Of a stretch of DNA of 50,001 nt, positions 8,731 through 50,001 are shown in pieces. A program made the translations under genes and the position numbers. The notes below the pieces were generated by a model. It ran no database searches. It was not told where the DNA came from and saw nothing but the letters and a program-made list of their open reading frames with translations. This DNA is from a virus, in IMG/VR virus record IMGVR_UViG_3300008267_000300, positions 1 to 50,001 of that record. The stretch is one strand, 5' to 3'. Numbering within the stretch: the stretch's first letter is position 1; each line of letters starts with the position of its first letter.

Positions 8731-11160
8731 ATGGAGAAACCATCCGTTGTCATATATCAAAATCCGTTTCCAAGCCAAATGGTATCGGATGAAGAGAAGC
8801 AAACAGTTAAGTACGGCTTAAGTGTTGGAAAGGCCATTGAAGGAGAATGGTTCAAAAGAAAAAACAATACATGTAGGTTTTATGATCAATGGGGTGAGTT
8901 CCATAGACTAAGACTTTACGCTCGTGGCCAACAGCCAGTACAAAAGTATAAGGATGAGTTGTCTATCAATGGCGATATGTCAATGATGAACTTAGACTGG
9001 ACTCCAGTTCCTATTATTCCTAAATTCGTTGACGTTGTAGTTAATGGAATGTCTGACAGACTATTTAAAGTTAGAACAGAAGCTCAAGACGTTATGTCTG
9101 CTGAGAATAAGAACATATTCCAAGAAATGATTGAGGCTGACATGGTGGCTAAAGATTTCTTAAAGATGACTCAAGATCAGTTCGGTGTAAACGCATTTAA
9201 TGTTGATCCAAACGAACTTCCAGATACTGACGAAGAGCTTGAGTTGTACATGCAGATCAAGTATAAGCCAAGTATAGAGATAGCCAACGAGATTGCTATT
9301 GATACTATATTTGAGATGAACAGTTACGATGAGTTAAGAAAACTAATGAATTATGATTTAGTAACGCTTGGCGTATCTGTTGTTAAGCACTCTTTCTTGG
9401 TTAACGATGGATTAAAGGTTGACTACGTTGACCCTGCTAACTGGATTCATAGTTATACTGAGAAGAATGACTTCTCAGATTGTTACTACTTTGGTGAGGT
9501 TAAGCAGATGCACTATACAGAGGTGCTTAAAATTGATCCTACACTAACTGACGAGCAATTAAACGAGATTAGAAACAGTAGTGCAGCTTGGTATACGTAC
9601 TTCCCTATCATTAGAAACTATCAAGACGATTACTTTACAAATGAGATCGTAACTCTTATTTACTTTAACTATAAGGCAAGTAAGAAGTTTGTTTGGAAGA
9701 AAAAGTTACTAGAGAATGGTGGAGAGAGAGTTATCAGAAAAGATGAAGGATTTAATCCACCAATGGAGGACGGAATGCCATTTGAAAGAGTAGAGGCAGT
9801 TAGAGATGTTTGGTATGAGGGTGTTCTTGTAGCTGGTACAAATATTGTACTTAAGTGGGAGATGATGCGTAACATGGTTCGTCCAAAGTCAGCATCTCAG
9901 AGAGCTTATCCAAACTATGTAGCATTTGCTCCTAGGATGTACAAAGGAGCTATGGAGTCTTTAGTTAGACGAATGATTCCATTTGCTGATCAGATTCAGT
10001 TGACACACTTAAAACTACAGCAAGTTACGGCAAGAGTTGTTCCAGATGGTGTATTTATTGATGCCGATGGAATTAACGAGGTTGACCTTGGAACTGGTGC
10101 TGCATACAATCCAGAGGATGCGTTAAAACTTTACTTCCAAACTGGTAGTGTTATCGGTAGGAGCTATACACAAGATGGTGAGTTTAACAACGCTAGAATT
10201 CCAATTCAAGAGTTGAGCACTAACAGTGGACAAGCCAAGATGTCTTCTCTTATAAATAACTACAATCACTATCTAAATATGATTAGAGATGTGACTGGAA
10301 TTAATGAAGCAAGAGACGGAAGCACGCCAAATCCAGACGCTTTAGTTGGCATACAGAAGATGGCTGCAATGAACTCTAACACAGCTACAAGACATATCTT
10401 AGAAGGAAACCTAAACATCACCAAGAGATTGGCTGAATGTGTTTCTATTAGAGTAGCTGATATACTAGAGTACTCTGACTTTGCTGAAGAGTTTGCAATG
10501 CAGATTGGTAAGTATAATATATCTATTCTCGATGAGATGAGAGATCTTTACTTATTTGATTTCGGTATATTCATTGACCTTGATCCAGATGAGGATGAGA
10601 GACAGATGCTTGAAGCTAATATTCAAGTTGCTCTACAACAACAAACAATTGATCTAGAAGATGCTATTGATATTAGAAACATCAAGAACATTAAGCTGGC
10701 TAATGAGTTGTTGAAGATGAAGAGAAAGAGAAGAATTGAGCAGCAACAAAAAGACAAGCAGATGGAGTACCAAATGCAAATGCAGACTAACATGCAGTCA
10801 CAACAAGCTGCTGCTGAGTCTAAAGCTCAATTGCTACAGATGGAGGCTCAAAGCAAGATTCAGATTAAAGAGGCTGAAGCCAATTATGATATAATGAGAA
10901 TGAGGGCTGAGGTTGATATGAAGAGAGAGCTAATGGATCTTGAATTCCAGTACAACATGCAATTAAAAGGCATGGAGTCACAAGAGCTTAAAAAGAGAGA
11001 TGAAGACAAAGAGAAAGCTAAAGATAAAAGAGTTGACATCCAGGCATCAAGACAGTCTGAACTAATTAATCAGAGAAAGAATAATCTTCCTCCAATTAAC
11101 TTTGAGAGCACTGAAGATTCTTTAGATGGATTTGACTTAGAGTCTTTCGAGCCTAAATAA
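8731..11160 (+). CDS. Portal protein
   Basis: 809 residues, directly after terminase. The core (~50-580) has the alternating helices and strands of a portal: wing region ~170-330 with PANWIHSYTEKNDFSDCYYF, and a stem/clip region ~420-560 with MESLVRRMIPFADQIQLTHL and MIRDVTGINEARDGS. The last ~160 residues form a long Gln/Met/Lys-rich coiled coil (RRIEQQQKDKQMEYQMQMQ) and end in an acidic tail; this is the extended barrel segment seen in large podovirus-type portals. It forms the dodecameric DNA channel at the capsid vertex and binds the terminase encoded next to it. Confidence 0.88.
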   Translation: MEKPSVVIYQNPFPSQMVSDEEKQTVKYGLSVGKAIEGEWFKRKNNTCRFYDQWGEFHRLRLYARGQQPVQKYKDELSINGDMSMMNLDWTPVPIIPKFVDVVVNGMSDRLFKVRTEAQDVMSAENKNIFQEMIEADMVAKDFLKMTQDQFGVNAFNVDPNELPDTDEELELYMQIKYKPSIEIANEIAIDTIFEMNSYDELRKLMNYDLVTLGVSVVKHSFLVNDGLKVDYVDPANWIHSYTEKNDFSDCYYFGEVKQMHYTEVLKIDPTLTDEQLNEIRNSSAAWYTYFPIIRNYQDDYFTNEIVTLIYFNYKASKKFVWKKKLLENGGERVIRKDEGFNPPMEDGMPFERVEAVRDVWYEGVLVAGTNIVLKWEMMRNMVRPKSASQRAYPNYVAFAPRMYKGAMESLVRRMIPFADQIQLTHLKLQQVTARVVPDGVFIDADGINEVDLGTGAAYNPEDALKLYFQTGSVIGRSYTQDGEFNNARIPIQELSTNSGQAKMSSLINNYNHYLNMIRDVTGINEARDGSTPNPDALVGIQKMAAMNSNTATRHILEGNLNITKRLAECVSIRVADILEYSDFAEEFAMQIGKYNISILDEMRDLYLFDFGIFIDLDPDEDERQMLEANIQVALQQQTIDLEDAIDIRNIKNIKLANELLKMKRKRRIEQQQKDKQMEYQMQMQTNMQSQQAAAESKAQLLQMEAQSKIQIKEAEANYDIMRMRAEVDMKRELMDLEFQYNMQLKGMESQELKKRDEDKEKAKDKRVDIQASRQSELINQRKNNLPPINFESTEDSLDGFDLESFEPK

Positions 11161-34940: not shown

Positions 34941-37900
34941 GTGGCTATAAAAGACGTTGTAAAGGAATACAAAGGAAAGATTACAGAGAGACAGCTGAAC
35001 GCTATCAACAGAAAGATTGCAAACGTTAATCTATTTAACCAAGAGATGGTTGAGAGAGTGATAGACTACGTGAACAAGGTGATGAACAATGCTGAGTATG
35101 CTACAAAAGTGAACAACGCATTTGCCGAAAGACGTGCCATCAGACGAATGATGAAGTCTGGAAATATGGCAGAGACTGTTGCTGTTGCAAAGGAGTTTAC
35201 TCAGATTGATCCGTCAATGGTTGATGACATAGACACATACCTAGAGATGGCTAAAACAATAAGAGGAGCCGTTAAGTCATCAAAACGTGTTAAAGACTCT
35301 GTGTCACTAAAAGAAATAGTAAACTTTGGAGAGGCATACGAGTACATCAATCCTATCCTTAAGGCTCAAGAAGAGTCCATGAAGAATATGCTATTGGCTG
35401 AGTACAACGATCTTGCTGAAGCTGGAGTTATCTCTAAGGATATGACTCTAAAGGATATCAATAATATAATAAAAAATATTAGAGCAGCAAAAGACGAAGA
35501 TGTAACAGCAGAGCAAGAAGAAACGGCAAGAGAATTCTTAAAGCAAAGACTTGAGTCAATTAAGTCAATCATCTCAATGGTTGCTAAGGGATACAACCCA
35601 CTTACTGGTGAGGTCATGGAGATTAGTGACCGAAACAAACAGATGATTGCAAAGGTTGTTAAGTCAGACATGAACAACATGTCTACAAAACAACTGATCG
35701 AAATGGTTGACTCTCTGTCTAACTTTGTAGAGAACGGAGCTGTAAGCGGAATAGAGGCTGCATACGAAACATATATTGGAGAAGAGAACGCAGCATCTCT
35801 TGAGAGAGAAGGTGTTGTTGCTAAAACTGTTAAGCTATACGCTAGCAAAAAAATAGGCGGTATCCAAGCATTTTCTTTTATGTCTCTACCAGAACTATTT
35901 AATAGAATGTTTGGTGGTGTACAGAATGGCATAAAGGTAATGACAAAGATGGGATTCTCTGATATTATACTAGGTGCAAATAAAGCTAAAAAACTAGCAG
36001 AACAAATTCAAAAAAGATACGTTGATAAATTTGGTGATGTAAAAGGATTCTTTGATAATGAAAACATATACGAGAGGGGAGCTCTAGCATTTTTAACTAG
36101 AAATGTAATAGGAAGTGAGGCTGAAATTAAGTCAGAATTTAACAGACGTGTTGACTGGTTATTTGAAAGCTTTGAAAGATTGAAAAGCGGAACAGCTGAG
36201 GAGCAAAAGATGGCTGTTGTATATGGTGAGATTATAGATAAGCTAGATATTAAATCTAGAGATTTAGAAAAGATATACTCAAACGCAGACAAGACAAATG
36301 TAGAGGCTGTAAACTGGTGGGTAGAAGAATGGTCCAAGCACTACTCTGATTTATCTGATGTATCTAGATCCGTTTATAATGCAATACTTGGAAAAGATAC
36401 TGGGTATACTCCAGACAGACTTAAGATGACTTCAAAAGAATCTTCAGACAAAACTACAAGTAAAGATTTAATGGATTTGATGGAGAGAAACTCATCATTT
36501 TTAATTAATACCGATGCCATTACCAATACCAATGAGTCTGGAGTTATGATAGCTTCTATTAGACCAGAAGTGAAAAATACAAAAGGAAGATACGTAAGTC
36601 TAGACTTTGAAATAAACAACATAGACTCACTTACTGGAGCACTTGTAGATATAAACACTGCTGGAGCAATTAGAAGACTAGATTCATTTATGAAGTCTAA
36701 ATCATTTGATAAAATTATACCAAATTCTGATGATCAAATAAGAATAAAAAAACGAATTAACAGGTACGTTAGAAGAATAAAAAATAAAATGCCTGCATCT
36801 AGTGATTCTATTCGTGATTTTAATAAAATTATAGATACAGCTGCATCATTAGGTGCATCAATAGGTCTTGGTGGAGCATTTCAAATAGTAAAACAAACAG
36901 TATCTGTTGCTATGAGTACTGCGCTACAGACAGGAGGTAACTTTAATATATATGCTGGAAAATCATTTAATGATTGGCTAGACACAACAGGTGCTACAGT
37001 TGCCAACAGAGGTCAAGAATCAATTTCAGCTATTGAAAGTGCAAACAAAAAAATACAATCATTTAGTGGAAACTTTGATAGAACACTTAAGGCGGTAAGC
37101 AAAGCAACTCAATGGCAGTTAAAATTGGTTTTATCTAGGCCAGACGTATTTGTAGCAAGGGCAGCATTTAAGTCTTATTATGAGCAGTTCCTTAAAAACA
37201 ACGGATACGATGTTTCTAAAATAAATTGGGACACGTGGGCAGATACAATTAAGAGAGAAGGAATAGAAGAATTAAATAAAGAGGCCGTAGTTTATGCTGA
37301 TACAATGGTGTCAAGACAGCAAAACGTATCTGACGAAAGATTAGCAGGAGAGGCTCTGGCTAGTGAAAATGATTGGGTAAAATTATCTAGAAAAGTATTG
37401 CTACCATTTGCATCTTTCAGTATAAACCAAAGAGCTAGACTTATAAATGATTTAATAACTATAAAAAACAACTTGTTTAACAAGACAGCATCAAAAGAAG
37501 ATGTATCTATTGCGTGGAAGTCTTTATTTGGTACACTAGTTGAACAAGCTACCTTTCAAGCAATAAACTATTCAATTGGAATGTTATTGTATTCTGCTGC
37601 ACAGGGAATAGCTGGGCATGATGACGATGAAGAAGAGTGGGAAAAAAGAAAAAAGAGAGCTACTCAGTATCCACTAAGATCACTAGCGGCTGATATTACA
37701 TCACCAACTCCTTTGGTTGATGACTTGTTTATTGATTTCTATGATTTGATTTTATCAAACATGGCAGCACCAAGCGAAAGCGAAATAAATAAAGCCATAA
37801 ATGATGAGAAAAAATTAAGAGAAGAGTTAGGAAAAGATTTTTCTGATTCTCAAATAAAAACTTTTAGAGAAAAATATATAGAAGACAATACGTATCAACT

Positions 37901-38456
37901 GTCTCCAAATTATATAAATACTGAAGATGGAAAGTGGGGTATGTTGTCAATTGCTTCAGATCAAGTAATGAGATTATCTGAAAACTCTGAGATGGCCACA
38001 AAAGGAACATTTACATCTGATTATCAAGGTAAAGAGACAACAAAATACCTTACCGATAAAGATAGAAGAATTGCTCAAGGAGTATTTTATATGTTAGATG
38101 TTCCATACACAACTGGTGCTGGCTTTAAAGAGATGGGTCAAGTTGCTAACAAGACATACTCAATCATAAAGAAGAGAGCACTTACAGAAAATCAGTATGA
38201 GACTTACAAGCAGTTTAAGAAAGACTTCAAGAGAGAACCTCAAGAATGGGAAATAAATCTTATCAAGTCAACAAAGTCAGACAATAAAGCTCTTGGAGAG
38301 CTTGACTTTATAAAAGAACAGGGTGGATTAAGTCCAAAACAAGGTGTAGAATATCTTAATGTGTTTAAAAAGATTGGTCCACTAAATCCAGAGGAGTACA
38401 GAATGATAATCAACGGTAAGAAAGCAGACCAAGTAATTAAGTCAGTACTAAAATAA
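34941..38456 (+). CDS. Giant polyvalent virion protein, C-terminal section
   Basis: The first start in this frame is GTG 34941, but the frame is open from 34845 and reads AAIRDQVRLQARSSRETAKN upstream, which fits naturally after REIRKFFGEKLK of the preceding frame. 1171 residues, nearly all helical: ~1-260 charged helices, ~290-420, ~560-760 with amphipathic Ala/Gly-rich helices (ASLGASIGLGGAFQIVKQTV), and a hydrophobic stretch ~845-885 (LVEQATFQAINYSIGMLLYS) followed by HDDDEEEWEKRKKRAT. Such helical, partly membrane-active C-termini are typical of podovirus proteins that form the trans-envelope channel. The stop overlaps the convergent metallophosphoesterase stop by 9 nt. Confidence 0.7.
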   Translation: MAIKDVVKEYKGKITERQLNAINRKIANVNLFNQEMVERVIDYVNKVMNNAEYATKVNNAFAERRAIRRMMKSGNMAETVAVAKEFTQIDPSMVDDIDTYLEMAKTIRGAVKSSKRVKDSVSLKEIVNFGEAYEYINPILKAQEESMKNMLLAEYNDLAEAGVISKDMTLKDINNIIKNIRAAKDEDVTAEQEETAREFLKQRLESIKSIISMVAKGYNPLTGEVMEISDRNKQMIAKVVKSDMNNMSTKQLIEMVDSLSNFVENGAVSGIEAAYETYIGEENAASLEREGVVAKTVKLYASKKIGGIQAFSFMSLPELFNRMFGGVQNGIKVMTKMGFSDIILGANKAKKLAEQIQKRYVDKFGDVKGFFDNENIYERGALAFLTRNVIGSEAEIKSEFNRRVDWLFESFERLKSGTAEEQKMAVVYGEIIDKLDIKSRDLEKIYSNADKTNVEAVNWWVEEWSKHYSDLSDVSRSVYNAILGKDTGYTPDRLKMTSKESSDKTTSKDLMDLMERNSSFLINTDAITNTNESGVMIASIRPEVKNTKGRYVSLDFEINNIDSLTGALVDINTAGAIRRLDSFMKSKSFDKIIPNSDDQIRIKKRINRYVRRIKNKMPASSDSIRDFNKIIDTAASLGASIGLGGAFQIVKQTVSVAMSTALQTGGNFNIYAGKSFNDWLDTTGATVANRGQESISAIESANKKIQSFSGNFDRTLKAVSKATQWQLKLVLSRPDVFVARAAFKSYYEQFLKNNGYDVSKINWDTWADTIKREGIEELNKEAVVYADTMVSRQQNVSDERLAGEALASENDWVKLSRKVLLPFASFSINQRARLINDLITIKNNLFNKTASKEDVSIAWKSLFGTLVEQATFQAINYSIGMLLYSAAQGIAGHDDDEEEWEKRKKRATQYPLRSLAADITSPTPLVDDLFIDFYDLILSNMAAPSESEINKAINDEKKLREELGKDFSDSQIKTFREKYIEDNTYQLSPNYINTEDGKWGMLSIASDQVMRLSENSEMATKGTFTSDYQGKETTKYLTDKDRRIAQGVFYMLDVPYTTGAGFKEMGQVANKTYSIIKKRALTENQYETYKQFKKDFKREPQEWEINLIKSTKSDNKALGELDFIKEQGGLSPKQGVEYLNVFKKIGPLNPEEYRMIINGKKADQVIKSVLK

Positions 38457-39569
38457 GTGAGTCAGTCTAGCAACCTGTCCGTTTAACGGATGGTGTATGA
38501 ATGCCTCTACAGCCTTTGGAGCGTGCTGGTATCCATTTCTGTGATGCCAGCTGTCAGTGCCAGATGGTGATCTTAAAGTCTCAACGTTTACAGACATGTA
38601 GTCCTTTGATGTCTTGTGGTGGATGTGATGTCCGTATATGTATCTATGGCTACACTTGTGCCACTTGTCAGAAGCCTCGTGAGCCATAAGTAGTGGTAGG
38701 TCTTGAACCTTAGCTCCGTCCATGTGAGTTGAACCGATTAGGTTCTTACCATAAACGGTGTACTTCCTGTGCTTCATGTCATTATCAAAACTTACATTGT
38801 CGCACTCGCTAAACCACGCCTCAACACACTGCAACAACATGAACCCAGACATGAAGTCGTGGTTACTTGGGTTGAATACCACGTGAACGTCAGCTATAGT
38901 CATAAGCGACTCAATAACATCAATCAATAGCCTCTTTGCCATTATAAAGTTGTCGTACCACATTCCGTCAGTGTCCTGCGGTGTACCAGACGTTGTCTGT
39001 CTTCTTGGATTGTCTATGTGTAGTATGTCGTTGCCAGCTATAAATATCACCTTGTCGATATTGTATCCAGATGCTCTACTGATTATACCACTCATTCCGT
39101 CCATAACTCTTTGAACAGCAATCTGTTGGTTGTAGTCTTCTCCAGTCTCAAATGCAGATGAAAGCTTTCCGATGTGAACGTCAGCTGGATCAAACACCAA
39201 GCAGTGTGGATCCTTTAGCTTGTCTCTTTTTAGTTTCTTGTACGATGGAGCCCAACTCTTTATCTCAGCTATAAGCTCAGTCTTGAACTCTTCTAAATTA
39301 ACATCAGAAGACTCACCCTTAACGTTAATACTGAAGTGCTGACCCTTGTGCCAGTAGTGTTTTACGTCTTCAACTGGAATTCCTACTCTTTCACACTCAT
39401 CATAGATAGCTTTATTATTTTCGTATCTGCTAACAACTCTGCGCACAGAACTTCTGTTCATTTCACTGTTATCACCAAAAACTCTTCTAGCTATTTCTGT
39501 TTTGTTTGTTATACCAGACCTATAAAGGTCCAATATCTCCTGGGTTTGATTCGTGACTTTTTTTGACAT
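38448..39569 (-). CDS. HTH-containing metallophosphoesterase (calcineurin-like)
   Basis: 373 residues. N-terminal ~1-50 is an HTH-type segment (ILDLYRSGITNKTEIARRVF with DNSEMNRSSVRRVVSRYE), then a linker, then a calcineurin-like phosphoesterase: D130-x-H132 in FDPADVHIGK, GND at 179-181 in IAGNDILH, N236-H237-D238 in PSNHDFM and GHHIHH at 313-318. All four metal-binding blocks are present, so activity on a phosphodiester (nuclease or nucleotide) is plausible. The HTH would direct it to DNA. Last gene of the leftward early operon; converges with the late operon. Related proteins are common in Bacteroidota phages. Confidence 0.85.
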   Translation of the reverse strand: MSKKVTNQTQEILDLYRSGITNKTEIARRVFGDNSEMNRSSVRRVVSRYENNKAIYDECERVGIPVEDVKHYWHKGQHFSINVKGESSDVNLEEFKTELIAEIKSWAPSYKKLKRDKLKDPHCLVFDPADVHIGKLSSAFETGEDYNQQIAVQRVMDGMSGIISRASGYNIDKVIFIAGNDILHIDNPRRQTTSGTPQDTDGMWYDNFIMAKRLLIDVIESLMTIADVHVVFNPSNHDFMSGFMLLQCVEAWFSECDNVSFDNDMKHRKYTVYGKNLIGSTHMDGAKVQDLPLLMAHEASDKWHKCSHRYIYGHHIHHKTSKDYMSVNVETLRSPSGTDSWHHRNGYQHAPKAVEAFIHHPLNGQVARLTHLF

Positions 39570-42328: not shown

Positions 42329-44683
42329 TTAAAAATTTAATTCAGTTTGATCTTCAAATTTAATAAACTCAACAGTCTTACCATGTGCGTTCCTGTATAT
42401 CTTTGGCTTCTCACCAAACTTGTACTCTCCAAGAACCTCTATCCATCGGTAGAACCTGTTGTGTGACAACTTAAACCTTCCGTAAGGCCCGTAGTCTGGG
42501 TACTCCTCAGTGAACTTGTTGTACATCGTTTGCCCAGGACTTGCGCTTCCTATCTTGATGTAGTCGTTATCATTTGACGTAGCCCACTCCCAAAAGTCAG
42601 CAGATGTCTCAGCGATGAACTTACGTGTCTTAAGGTTCATGAAGTCACAACGTATAAGACCTTTAGATAGGTAAAGCTGAAGGTTGGATATCATGTAGTT
42701 GTCAAACCTTGACCACTCGCTACCACCCCAACCTGCAAACAACATGTGTCCAAACTCAGTCTCTGGAGTAAACATCTTGGAGTAGTACTGCTTGAACTCT
42801 AGGTCCCACTTCCTTCTCTCAAAGCTGTTACCAGCACCCTTGATGGCATAGTTTGTCGTGATGACAATCTTTGGTGAACTCTCGAACGGAATGTGTATCT
42901 CATCCTTGTTCTTCTTCTCAAGAGTTATACCCTCAGTGATAACCGAGAACAACCTCTCGAAGTCAAAGTTCTTACTAACGTCATCAAAGACAAGCGTCTG
43001 AGTGTCTACCTGCACACGTTGGTACGGGAATGACTTCTGGAAGCTGAACCCCTTTCCGTCAATAATAACCATCTTCTTTATAAACGATATCGACTTGACG
43101 AAGATCCCTTTCCCCGTACCACCTTCAGGATTGTCGCTAATAACCTCGTCATTAAGTATGACAGCAGGGCAGTAGCTAGCAGGCTTGTAACTATGCAAAA
43201 GGTAACCAATAGTTGACTCCATCGACTGAAGTCGGCTCGAATTGTTTCCAGAAATGTTTTTAACGAATCTCTTAAATTCACAATCATCAGTATTTAATTT
43301 ATTAAAGTCTCTATCTATCTTTTGTTTCTCCCACACGTAACCACCTAGGTCCTTGTAGTCTATCATATCAATGTTGTCCTTTGTCACACGAACAGCGCAG
43401 TTACGATAGTACAGGTACGCCTCGTTGATGGTATCAACCATGAAGTACGGCTCTACCTTGGCTACATAGTTTAGGAATGCCTCTTGGAAGAACTTCGTGT
43501 TGATCGCAAAGAAGTTGTACACCGACATGTCGTTAATACCCATCAGATAGTCAAGCACAAAGTCCTTGATCATGTCCTCGTTTGTGTCGCTAATGATGTT
43601 GTCAACTATCCGTACAAACACAAAGTTATTCGATCCGTTAGGGTAGTACTTGTAGAATCCGTTACCCTTTAGGTAGTCCCTAAACAGGTGAGGCACTAGA
43701 TCAATCTTACCCTTGCTACTCTTGGACCAGAACGTGTTGTACTCCTCAGTCTCAACCATCTCGTTGATGATGTTCTCGTCAATGTCGGTAAAGTTCTGCT
43801 TTATCTCCTTAACTGGAACACCTCTAAGTATGTCGTTCTTAATATTGGTCGTCTTGTCAACGTCCTCGTAGAACTTAGTGGCGTGCTCGTGAACGTTCTT
43901 GTATGCAGACCAAACAATCGTGCTAATCTCAGAGGCCATGTCACCATCGTCATAAGACATTAGTACATCAATAGCCTCATCCTTAGATATTCCGTACTGG
44001 TTGAGTGCTGATGCAAATATGAACAGGTTATTGTTTCGCTGTCCCTTGACCATGCCATGCTTCTTGTTCCACCACAAAGACAATCGTCTAACAACCTCAT
44101 TGGAGTCGTTAATGATTATCTTCGGCCTTGGCTTAACAAAGTCATCGCTGTTGTCCATTTCTACCCACGTCTCAGACAGCTCGTTAATGAATATGTCAGG
44201 GTCGTAGCTCTCGTAACACACACGTGATATGTTCTTGCAAGACTTGTCAAACTCATCGCAGTTGTAGTACTTCTGCAATGCAACAAAGTACTTCTTGTGG
44301 TTGGACGCATCCTTTGGAATTCTAACAAGAACCTTCAGTCCATCACCAGATGGTGACGTGAACACAGAGTACGAGTACTTGTCGTTGCACAGGTCTTGTC
44401 TCATCTGATACAACGACTGATCGTCCTTGAACCCGTCAAAGTCTATGCATATCAGTCCGCTGTGCTCGATGATAGCATTGTCAGCACGTCTAGAGAACTG
44501 ACCAGAAAATAAAATTGAAGGAAGACCTTTCTTTAGGTTGTTACGTTGCTCCTTGTCCTCGGCAGAACGTATCATCTCAACTAGGTCCTTTGATACACCA
44601 TCTCTAATTCTATCTAATGCAACTAGTACGTCTACGTGGTAAGGCTTGTCAGTTTCATTGATTGATTTAAAGTAGGTTATCAT
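42329..44683 (-). CDS. Primase-helicase (VirE_N primase-like domain plus SF3 helicase)
   Basis: Start chosen at ATG 44683, which overlaps the previous stop (ATGA); 23 further codons exist upstream in frame but lie inside the neighbouring gene. 784 residues. The N-terminus (~1-180) has GLPSILFSGQFSRRADNAII, HSGLICIDFDGFKDD and SPSGDGLKVLVRI, hallmarks of the VirE_N/BT4734-like primase-type domain. SF3/VapE ATPase: Walker A GGTGKG at 521-526, Walker B LVFDD with D567-D568, sensor KIVITTNYAIKG. The C-terminal ~130 residues are a wHTH-like DNA-binding segment. It probably primes and unwinds phage DNA. No separate polymerase is visible in the window. Confidence 0.85.
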   Translation of the reverse strand: MITYFKSINETDKPYHVDVLVALDRIRDGVSKDLVEMIRSAEDKEQRNNLKKGLPSILFSGQFSRRADNAIIEHSGLICIDFDGFKDDQSLYQMRQDLCNDKYSYSVFTSPSGDGLKVLVRIPKDASNHKKYFVALQKYYNCDEFDKSCKNISRVCYESYDPDIFINELSETWVEMDNSDDFVKPRPKIIINDSNEVVRRLSLWWNKKHGMVKGQRNNNLFIFASALNQYGISKDEAIDVLMSYDDGDMASEISTIVWSAYKNVHEHATKFYEDVDKTTNIKNDILRGVPVKEIKQNFTDIDENIINEMVETEEYNTFWSKSSKGKIDLVPHLFRDYLKGNGFYKYYPNGSNNFVFVRIVDNIISDTNEDMIKDFVLDYLMGINDMSVYNFFAINTKFFQEAFLNYVAKVEPYFMVDTINEAYLYYRNCAVRVTKDNIDMIDYKDLGGYVWEKQKIDRDFNKLNTDDCEFKRFVKNISGNNSSRLQSMESTIGYLLHSYKPASYCPAVILNDEVISDNPEGGTGKGIFVKSISFIKKMVIIDGKGFSFQKSFPYQRVQVDTQTLVFDDVSKNFDFERLFSVITEGITLEKKNKDEIHIPFESSPKIVITTNYAIKGAGNSFERRKWDLEFKQYYSKMFTPETEFGHMLFAGWGGSEWSRFDNYMISNLQLYLSKGLIRCDFMNLKTRKFIAETSADFWEWATSNDNDYIKIGSASPGQTMYNKFTEEYPDYGPYGRFKLSHNRFYRWIEVLGEYKFGEKPKIYRNAHGKTVEFIKFEDQTELNF
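42355..42362 (-). promoter_or_regulatory. Possible minus-strand -7 element inside primase gene end
   Basis: The minus strand reads TAAATTTG here, 29 nt before the start of the 96-aa gene. It lies within the last codons of the primase-helicase, so it may be chance in AT-rich coding DNA. Confidence 0.25.
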
Positions 44684-45519: not shown

Positions 45520-45758
45520 TCTAATAAGTCTATTGTTCTTTCAGCACCATCATATTTAGACTTTGCATGTAACATCTCCCCATTTATATTTATATTTTTG
45601 TCAGGATATGTTGCTACAAATTCTGCAAAACTACACATTTGTTCCTTCTCCATTTCTATAGCTTTATCCCAACAATCAGAGTTGTAATTAAATTCTTCTT
45701 CACTATATGGTTCTGAATTTAAGTTTTCTAATAGCCACTCTACTGCTGTTTGTTTCAT
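45501..45758 (-). CDS. MKQTAVEW-family small protein, paralogue 1
   Basis: I use ATG 45758, since the homologous N-terminus MKQTAVEWLLENLNSEPYSE begins there; 14 further codons upstream belong to the neighbour's repeat. 85 residues, acidic, helical, with DKAIEMEKEQMCSFAEFVAT and the shared end LLETFKSE. 'MKQTAVEWL' plus 'QAKxMEKEQI' and 'YYNETF' is a family I recognise as abundant in Flavobacteriia phages, often in tandem copies. Function unknown. Confidence 0.7.
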   Translation of the reverse strand: MKQTAVEWLLENLNSEPYSEEEFNYNSDCWDKAIEMEKEQMCSFAEFVATYPDKNININGEMLHAKSKYDGAERTIDLLETFKSE

Positions 45759-45759
45759 C

Positions 45760-45778
45760 TTATTCTGATTTAAAGGTT
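45760..45778 (-). repeat. Intercistronic direct repeat, copy 3
   Basis: Third copy of the 19-mer, encoding ETFKSE and the stop of paralogue 2 and lying 2 nt before the ATG of paralogue 1. Confidence 0.85.
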
Positions 45779-45978
45779 TCGTTGTAGTATTGTTCGGCAT
45801 TCAATTCGTAATAATCCTTTGGTAATGGATCGGGCAAGTCATCTAAATACCCCGTTAAAAATGCATCTATTATCTGCTCTTTCTCCATTGCTTTGGCTTG
45901 GTCAATATCCCCCTTTGTAAACTTACCAAGTCTATCAAAAAGTCGTTGTTCCAACCACTCTACTGCTGTTTGTTTCAT
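45760..45978 (-). CDS. MKQTAVEW-family small protein, paralogue 2
   Basis: 72 residues: MKQTAVEWLEQRLFDRLGKF, then QAKAMEKEQIIDAFLTGYLD, ending EQYYNETFKSE. It shares start, MEKEQ core and end with the downstream paralogue. The middle differs, so the pair has diverged by point change and indels while flanking repeats stayed identical. The classical family layout is complete here. It is transcribed leftward with the rest of the early operon. Confidence 0.75.
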   Translation of the reverse strand: MKQTAVEWLEQRLFDRLGKFTKGDIDQAKAMEKEQIIDAFLTGYLDDLPDPLPKDYYELNAEQYYNETFKSE

Positions 45979-46020
45979 ATAAAGGATGTTTTTATAGGTT
46001 TTTGTTCTTTTTATGACCAG

Positions 46021-46038
46021 TTATGCTGTTTGTTTCAT
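46021..46038 (-). pseudogene. Remnant of a third MKQTAVEW copy (MKQTA-stop)
   Basis: The minus strand reads ATGAAACAAACAGCATAA: the first five codons of the family followed at once by a stop. The leader also matches: TTATAGGTTT occurs upstream here (46042-46051) and upstream of the intact paralogue 2 (45992-46001). It looks like the stub left after deletion of a third copy. Confidence 0.55.
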
Positions 46039-46086
46039 AACTTATAGGTTTAAAATTTGTCAAGTTTTTTAAGCTCATAGGTTGAC

Positions 46087-46101
46087 ATCACAAATTGTGA
46101 T
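46087..46101. promoter_or_regulatory. Perfect dyad ATCACAA-A-TTGTGAT (possible operator)
   Basis: A 7-bp inverted repeat around a single A, spanning the last codons of the 87-aa gene and the start of a 109-nt gap that leads to the MKQTAVEW genes. The symmetry and size fit a repressor site; a coding coincidence is possible because half of it encodes D-H-N-L-stop. Confidence 0.3.
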
Positions 46102-46351
46102 CTCTAGCGTCAAAGTCTTTTGGAACGTCATTGAAGTTAGGTATCCGTATACCCATTGCGTCCTGTAGCGTGCCCATTATCGAGTCAGCCGTTGCTCCCC
46201 AGTACATCTCACAAGAGAACCCACCATCGTTGATGTGGTATGGTGGGTCAAGGAAGTATGCCTGTCTAAATTTATTTGCTGGTGCTGTAAACCTTCTACA
46301 GCTCTCCTTCATCGGGCAGTCAAAGCCACCGCACTTAGTTATATCGCTCAT
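46088..46351 (-). CDS. Cys-containing conserved small protein, 87 aa
   Basis: MSDITKCGGFDCPMKESCRR, then FRQAYFLDPPYHINDGGFSC and EMYWGATADSIMGTLQDA. Four cysteines (C7, C12, C18, C47) suggest a small metal site. The pattern 'CxGxxCPxKxxCxRYTAP----QSYFxxPPxxxxxxxxxCxMYWG' is one I recognise from many phage genomes, with no function assigned. Starts on an ATGA overlap with the upstream lipoprotein gene. Confidence 0.75.
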   Translation of the reverse strand: MSDITKCGGFDCPMKESCRRFTAPANKFRQAYFLDPPYHINDGGFSCEMYWGATADSIMGTLQDAMGIRIPNFNDVPKDFDARDHNL

Positions 46352-49425: not shown

Positions 49426-49589
49426 GGCTTCAGTGTTATTATTTGTACTACCGCCTTCTCAATCGATAGAAATATCGCTCCTTCAAATGCTATCTCAAAG
49501 AACACCATTGCGTGCTCCTCGTCACGACAGCATATGTATATGTTGGACTCCTCGCCATTCTGTATGTATTTAATGTTGTACCTGTTCAT
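49413..49589 (-). CDS. 58-aa small protein
   Basis: ATG at 49589 overlaps the previous stop (ATGA) and TAG is at 49413. Product MNRYNIKYIQNGEESNIYIC then CRDEEHAMVFFEIAFEGAIF and LSIEKAVVQIITLKPCLN. Alternating strands and a helix; a Cys-Cys pair at 20-21. Fills the gap between its neighbours with coupling at both ends, so probably real. No family recognised. Confidence 0.6.
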   Translation of the reverse strand: MNRYNIKYIQNGEESNIYICCRDEEHAMVFFEIAFEGAIFLSIEKAVVQIITLKPCLN

Positions 49590-49861
49590 AAATCTAGCTT
49601 TACTTCAGTTATTAGGTTTCGTGAGTAGTACTCCTCGTCAGTGTAATCACTCACCAAATATACGGAGACTAATGAATCTAACCAATCCTGCCTATTCCTA
49701 AATGACTCAACAGGCTCGTAGCTCATGTGAACGTCATACATCTTGCCATTGATTGCTACCGATTGCCACTCGTCTGTGTAGTCGAAGACTATTTCTGCTA
49801 CCTCTTGATTGTCTACCGACAGGACTACTGACCGATAGAACGGATTTACTTTTGCTTTCAT
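49586..49861 (-). CDS. First leftward (early) gene, hypothetical, 91 aa
   Basis: MKAKVNPFYRSVVLSVDNQE, then VAEIVFDYTDEWQSVAINGK and a helical region around NRQDWLDSLVSVYL. Acidic, beta then alpha. It is the promoter-proximal gene of the early operon in this window and begins 3 nt from the phased pentamer array described next, so its translation or transcription is the most likely target of that array. Confidence 0.65.
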   Translation of the reverse strand: MKAKVNPFYRSVVLSVDNQEVAEIVFDYTDEWQSVAINGKMYDVHMSYEPVESFRNRQDWLDSLVSVYLVSDYTDEEYYSRNLITEVKLDL

Positions 49862-49863
49862 AA

Positions 49864-49908
49864 TGTTGGTTTTTGTTAAAATGTGTTAATAAATGTCGGT
49901 TTGTGTTG
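49864..49908. repeat. Five TGTYR pentamers at exact 10-bp spacing (operator-like array)
   Basis: On the plus strand TGTTG, TGTTA, TGTTA, TGTCG and TGTTG start at 49864, 49874, 49884, 49894 and 49904. The 5-nt spacers differ. On the minus strand the same region is YRACA repeats lying just before the ATG of the first early gene. It could be a helically phased protein-binding array on DNA or a repeated RNA site in the leader. Confidence 0.6.
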
Positions 49909-50001
49909 ATTTTTTTTTGAGTTGACACTCTGAAACCCTTGATTTTACTATGTTAGTGTTGAAATGTTAATTTTTATACCCTAATTCAAAATAAAAAAAA
50001 A
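49909..50001. other. AT-rich control region at right edge with further TGTTR motifs
   Basis: No gene is seen here. The stretch contains T9 and A9 tracts and three more TGTTR words at 49951, 49957 and 49965, not in 10-bp phase. On the minus strand a GGGTATAAAAATTAAC segment could be part of an early promoter, but no TAnnTTTG match was found. The window ends inside it. Confidence 0.4.

Follow-up and report, generated by a model that had tools for sequence, protein, structure and literature searches.

The repeat array at the end of this viral DNA is probably, with a rough probability of 0.78, the right arm of a replication origin, in which two helically phased sets of iterons flank a melting region and would be bound by the phage primase-helicase. 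The window, i.e. the whole stretch of 50,001 bases that was analysed, is an IMG/VR fragment that terminates mid-element at position 50001. It holds only the right arm and the adjoining 32 bases of the centre, and the remaining centre and the left arm are seen in relatives only (Table 1).

Table 1. Position and supporting evidence of the features of the window that are relevant to the proposed origin
Feature	Position	Strand	Evidence or remark
784-aa primase-helicase, proposed initiator	42329..44683	-	Pfam, co-occurrence, AF2 model, Foldseek
91-aa gene	49586..49861	-	Start codon 3 bp from the array
Right-arm iteron array, 5 YRACA pentamers	49864..49908	-	Sequence; 3–6 copies at 10/11 bp in relatives
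A-tract separating doublet and array (A9, minus-strand reading)	49910..49918	-	Kept on both arms in close relatives
Core doublet TAACA-TTT-CAACA, pentamers 8 bp apart	49957..49969	-	Alignment; borders the AT-rich centre; distances on the helical grid are counted from here
AT-rich centre, right end only (putative melting zone)	49970..50001	.	Alignment of relatives

Five TGTYR words at 10-bp steps had been described in the first-pass annotation, and their starts at 49864, 49874, 49884, 49894 and 49904 were confirmed. On the minus strand these are YRACA words at 49908, 49898, 49888, 49878 and 49868, in the order CAACA, CGACA, TAACA, TAACA and CAACA; their steps are exactly 10 bp and they lie 61, 71, 81, 91 and 101 bp away from the inner doublet copy. 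When 2,560 patterns of pentamers, each with two R/Y positions, were scanned, the array was the sole five-copy site with a fixed step (6–15 bp) in the window. The array also withstood comparison with shuffled sequence: a five-copy run at step 10 was found in none of 150 order-2 Markov sequences and at any step from 6 to 15 in 2 of 150, while no TGTYR run occurred in 20,000 sequences whose base composition was that of the corresponding gap of a relative. For the three-copy stretch there were 3 matches against 0.02 expected. Three copies next to the array had been called unphased, which is incorrect for two of them, since 49965–49969 and 49957–49961 constitute the strictly conserved doublet; the third, at 49951–49955, shows no conservation.

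The array indeed ends 3 bp from the start codon of the 91-aa gene, as had been noted, but the claim that this is the first leftward gene at the start of the early operon does not stand, and it arose because the window contig ends within the element. In the complete relative G004 (64,267 bp with a 69-bp terminal repeat) the early and late genes diverge at ~41.3–41.9 kb, and the array is placed at 35.57–35.62 kb, ~6 kb downstream of this divergence. There, the leftward gene block is interrupted by a noncoding gap that has small early genes on one side and replication and recombination genes on the other, and the gap is thus the front of the replication block. Genes flanking the gap point in the same direction, which rules out a divergent early promoter. 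Sixteen IMG/VR contigs carry a relative of this 91-aa gene; the gene is not a core part of the element, because other genes are found in its place in several relatives. The minimum of the GC skew in G004 and G012 coincides with the divergence of gene directions, away from the element, which is a weak point of the origin reading; as the skew tracks gene direction, it is of no help as origin support.

The large terminase shows 70% identity to that of MW202828 and 44% to those of the Flavobacterium elemo phages, and the window is therefore placed among phages of Bacteroidota. A conserved 168-aa gene of G004 (45685–46191), located on the strand opposite to its neighbours in the late region near groEL/groES, gave no Pfam match; it is also present in elemo and in MW202828, where it is annotated as a repressor. 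At the end of the leftward block of the window (38448–39569, minus strand) there is a conserved 373-aa phosphoesterase-like protein with a helix-turn-helix-like stretch at its N terminus. Contigs break inside or at the edge of the element in the window (49970–50001), in L004 (1–32) and at the start of L016, and its AT-rich centre seems to interrupt assembly.

The whole element, seen in about 30 contigs whose primase identity ranges from 51 to 91%, is mirror-symmetric; it spans 35.6–35.9 kb in G004 and about 4,690–5,000 in L007. Read from the right, aligned relatives contain the array, an A-tract, the doublet YRACA-N3-YRACA, an AT-rich centre of about 77–109 bp with 13–23% GC, an inverted doublet, an A-tract and an inverted array. 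The conservation on which the earlier interpretation depended is there: the pentamers and their spacing are kept, with 3–6 array copies at 10/11 bp. The number of copies per arm varies from 4 to 8, and a simple count of one hexamer per arm therefore does not follow. Better folding than that of shuffled sequences was found for the centres of L157, L164, L195 and L229, with a combined z of -5.5 over 19 centres, many of which show no signal and which come from related rows; for the same reasons a central hairpin is at most a possible universal part of the element. The centres of L157, L164, L189, L195 and L198 contain palindromes or hairpins that differ in sequence, for example a GC-containing 9-bp stem in L164 and CCCCTATAGGGG in L198.

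The spacing follows the DNA helix. Measured from the inner doublet copy on both arms of 16 representatives, array copies are found near 39, 50, 61, 72, 82, 92, 102 and 112 bp, and the best period for 125 distances is 10.6 bp (mean vector R 0.77). When each distance is counted once, the best period is 10.85 and none of 500 random sets of distinct distances is as periodic. Relatives differ by whole 10-bp units through loss or gain of copies, or else by a change in a middle copy that leaves the next one in phase. L198 has the same architecture built from another word, CGTCA, with steps of 21, 21 and 21 bp in the left array and 21, 20 and 20 bp in the right one; the recognised word would have been switched at least once from YRACA to CGTCA with the grid kept. 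The proposal of helical phasing, with all pentamers on the same face, gains from these comparisons, the spacing being conserved in relatives at a mean of 10.6 bp and changing by jumps of whole turns. Such whole-turn spacing fits a protein on one face of duplex DNA, not RNA.

The alternative offered earlier, a TRAP-like RNA leader in which a ring-shaped protein represses translation by binding to the YRACA repeats of the transcript, can accordingly be given almost no weight. It shares with TRAP leaders the short, regularly spaced repeats in front of a start codon, as the window has them, and a 74-aa WYL_2 protein with an Sm-like barrel is encoded just upstream of the element in G004 (36177–36401) and also in G012. 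However, the WYL_2 gene is present in only 3 of 20 array-bearing loci, the array is sometimes away from a start codon, and the spacing is a mixture of 10 and 11 with a mean of 10.6 and jumps of 20–21, as expected for the helical repeat. TRAP acts in RNA, on (G/U)AG-type repeats that are close together and confined to the transcribed strand, whereas here YRACA words are spaced by 10–11 nt and are accompanied by an equally conserved mirror set on the untranscribed strand, beyond which most relatives have no gene start. The leader RNA folds no better than its shuffles (z +0.91), and an Rfam search returned no family.

Phased direct repeats are the targets of many oligomeric regulators. An operator or promoter without origin function, where an oligomeric phage or host regulator on the pentamers would control transcription of the replication genes, is consistent with the position of the right array, whose end usually coincides with a start codon, either that of the first replication-block gene or that of the primase gene. 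The array also stays put when the downstream gene is switched: the first downstream gene is swapped in L006, L017, L018 and L019, and the array is still there with its gap. The gene directly after the right array is C5-cytosine methyltransferase-like in L017 and L018 and a small gene of unknown function in L006 and L019. This explanation is nonetheless rather unlikely, as the inverted left arm is as conserved as the right one and in most relatives it is followed by no gene start on that strand. The array does not adjoin a start codon in several relatives, and in L195, L198 and L212 the first gene is 164–200 bp from the inner doublet copy. The TAnnTTTG -7 element of Bacteroidota promoters, which goes with a -33 element, is not conserved and was found on the gene strand of 1 of 20 elements, which counts against an operator. 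Moreover, a single element is present per complete genome (G004) rather than a regulon, and mirror arms separated by a long AT-rich centre are a typical feature of origins.

Where array and operon start overlap, a role as an operator in addition to that of an origin is plausible. In one version of this, an addition to the origin reading and not an alternative to it, the primase-helicase bound at the overlapping origin arm would repress its own operon. In MW202828 and some nine further relatives the array and the start codon of the primase overlap, and in the clade of the window the array adjoins the gene that opens the replication block; however, it is unchanged where genes are inserted between it and the start codon. 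Autoregulation is possible, if slightly more doubtful than not.

The candidate binder for the origin is the primase-helicase itself. Among the early genes of G004, only those of the primase-helicase and an SNF2-like helicase are found in all 20 array-bearing loci, with a small nuclease in 19 of 20, while the exonuclease, SSB-like and 159-aa genes are absent from 6 of the 20. ParR-type centromeres also consist of helically phased direct repeats in two clusters, which brings to mind another nucleoprotein site, such as a centromere-like partition, packaging or recombination site. The linkage, however, tracks the primase-helicase and not a terminase, partition or integrase gene, and an AT-rich centre of about 75–110 bp has no role in those systems, making such a site very unlikely.

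The 784-aa protein contains BT4734-like_N and DUF5906 domains, a sub-threshold match to PriCT_1 (all from Pfam) and a C-terminal winged-helix-like domain. Its AlphaFold model has a mean pLDDT of 78, with a poorly modelled helicase core, and Foldseek matched it to AsfvPrimPol (E 3e-10) and to the SaPI5 primase-helicase (7ola, E 6e-9), while a sequence search of the PDB with the primase gave nothing relevant. The C-terminal domain, confidently modelled when taken alone (pLDDT 86), has a helix-helix-strand-helix-helix-strand-strand order, which is winged-helix-like; its fold search against the PDB gave no significant match, the P4 origin-binding domain 1ka8 ranking 31st with an E of 2.5. Together with the analogy to related initiators, the linkage and the model suggest that the primase-helicase binds the pentamers. 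A weak point is that the C-terminal helix region of the L198 protein, which would read CGTCA, is nearly the same as in L195 and L197, which are YRACA readers, so that the determinant of specificity for the pentamer may be located elsewhere.

The origin-binding protein proposed among the earlier options thus holds up well, given the conserved spacing, the 10.6-bp mean and the whole-turn jumps; of that interpretation as a whole, helical phasing and origin binding are retained, while the start of the early operon and the TRAP-like leader are not. In the proposed mechanism, two mirror-image iteron sets (YRACA, or CGTCA in one lineage) would surround the AT-rich centre, each arm having a doublet spaced by 8 or 9 bp at the edge of the centre and an outer array on the same face of the helix as the doublet. 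An AEP-type primase joined to an SF3/D5-type helicase would bind each pentamer through its C-terminal winged-helix-like domain, with each helical turn taking one molecule, all on one face. An oligomer would then assemble on each arm, and the two would melt the AT-rich centre and be loaded for bidirectional unwinding and priming. The sequences themselves display the architecture, the phasing, the mirror symmetry, the conservation, the lineage-specific pentamer and the linkage to the primase-helicase, whereas origin activity, the binder, the melting of strands and the number of molecules belong to the proposal.

The element extends beyond the close relatives of the window. An alignment of primase-helicases provided at least 80 further loci, and a two-arm score of at least 8, which none of 240 Markov sequences reached, was obtained for 18 of these at least 80 loci listed; many of the remaining primase-bearing loci are short contigs unable to contain the site. 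In deeper lineages (MW202828 from GenBank, L222, L223, L225–L227, L229–L231 and L233) the element is positioned on the start of the primase-helicase gene, its right array overlapping the start codon, while elsewhere it is ~4.5–10 kb upstream of this gene. On the right these lineages have a 9-bp doublet, and on the left there is usually a doublet but no clear array. A de novo search for the element with an 8-bp doublet found none in MW202828, where the doublet is 9-bp, or in elemo. The element was not found in Flavobacterium phage elemo, which is related only in the N-terminus of its primase, and some relatives with long upstream sequence, such as L224 and L232, show no clear element; these cases count against the origin reading. 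In a collection-wide scan for four phased YAACA words, many of the matches listed are likely due to chance, and only overlaps with primase-bearing contigs were used.

Replication origins are unknown for nearly all uncultivated phages. For an entire lineage of aquatic podoviruses of the Bacteroidota type, the element provides a sequence-defined candidate origin and names a candidate initiator, and it is recognisable in metagenome contigs by a simple rule. It would extend to autonomous-looking phages an origin design thought to be special to phage satellites. Its natural variants, namely whole-turn insertions, copies lost in phase and the switched pentamer, permit direct tests of helical-phase reading by the primase-helicase. 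If the explicit grid is truly kept through the switch from YRACA to CGTCA, the lineage could tentatively be regarded, at a little below even odds, as a candidate relative or source of satellite replicons.

Among known replicons, every PICI origin has an AT-rich region with a set of iterons on either side (PMC6092414). Cch2 of SCCmec, which is similar to SaPI5 Rep, uses its C-terminal domain to bind 5-nt iterons (AAGTG), on which its helicase activity depends, and the SaPI origin appears to be bound by two hexamers of Rep (PMC7581432). The relatives of the window likewise have symmetric iteron sets around an AT-rich centre, of which the window has the right half only, and the same replicon encodes a pri-rep initiator of the SaPI5 Rep/D5 kind, in line with the fold match to 7ola. 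Unlike the SaPI/PICI origin, which is immediately 3' of rep, the element is 5' of the initiator gene; it belongs to autonomous-looking tailed phages of 60–64 kb rather than satellites, and its iterons follow a strict helical grid with an extra 8–9-bp doublet at the border of the centre.

The α protein of P4 binds origin repeats with its C-terminal winged helix (PMC4234260, PMC10516667). The annotated type 1 repeats of P4, GGTGAACA, are found at 9310/9320/9331 and 9396/9406, i.e. 10 and 11 bp apart, and are similar to the 10/11-bp spacing here in being direct iterons at about one helical turn by an AT-rich stretch; in both cases the primase is fused to an SF3 helicase. The iteron, however, is GGTGAACA in P4 and YRACA or CGTCA here, P4 needs a second region, crr, as opposed to the single element of G004, and the P4 primase is of the TOPRIM type, while BT4734-like_N and PriCT_1 domains are found here and the C-terminal domain has no significant fold match to 1ka8.

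Plasmid pRN1 and phage BIP-1 have the same combination of AEP primase, SF3 helicase and winged-helix tail domains, but for their proteins assembly is proposed at a large stem-loop that lies 3' of the gene, without the iterons that are present here (PMC4234260). Because of its place 5' of the initiator gene, its different iterons and the putative nature of its binding by the initiator, the element is not filed as a member of the SaPI/PICI or the P4 origins, yet by analogy it would work like either of them.
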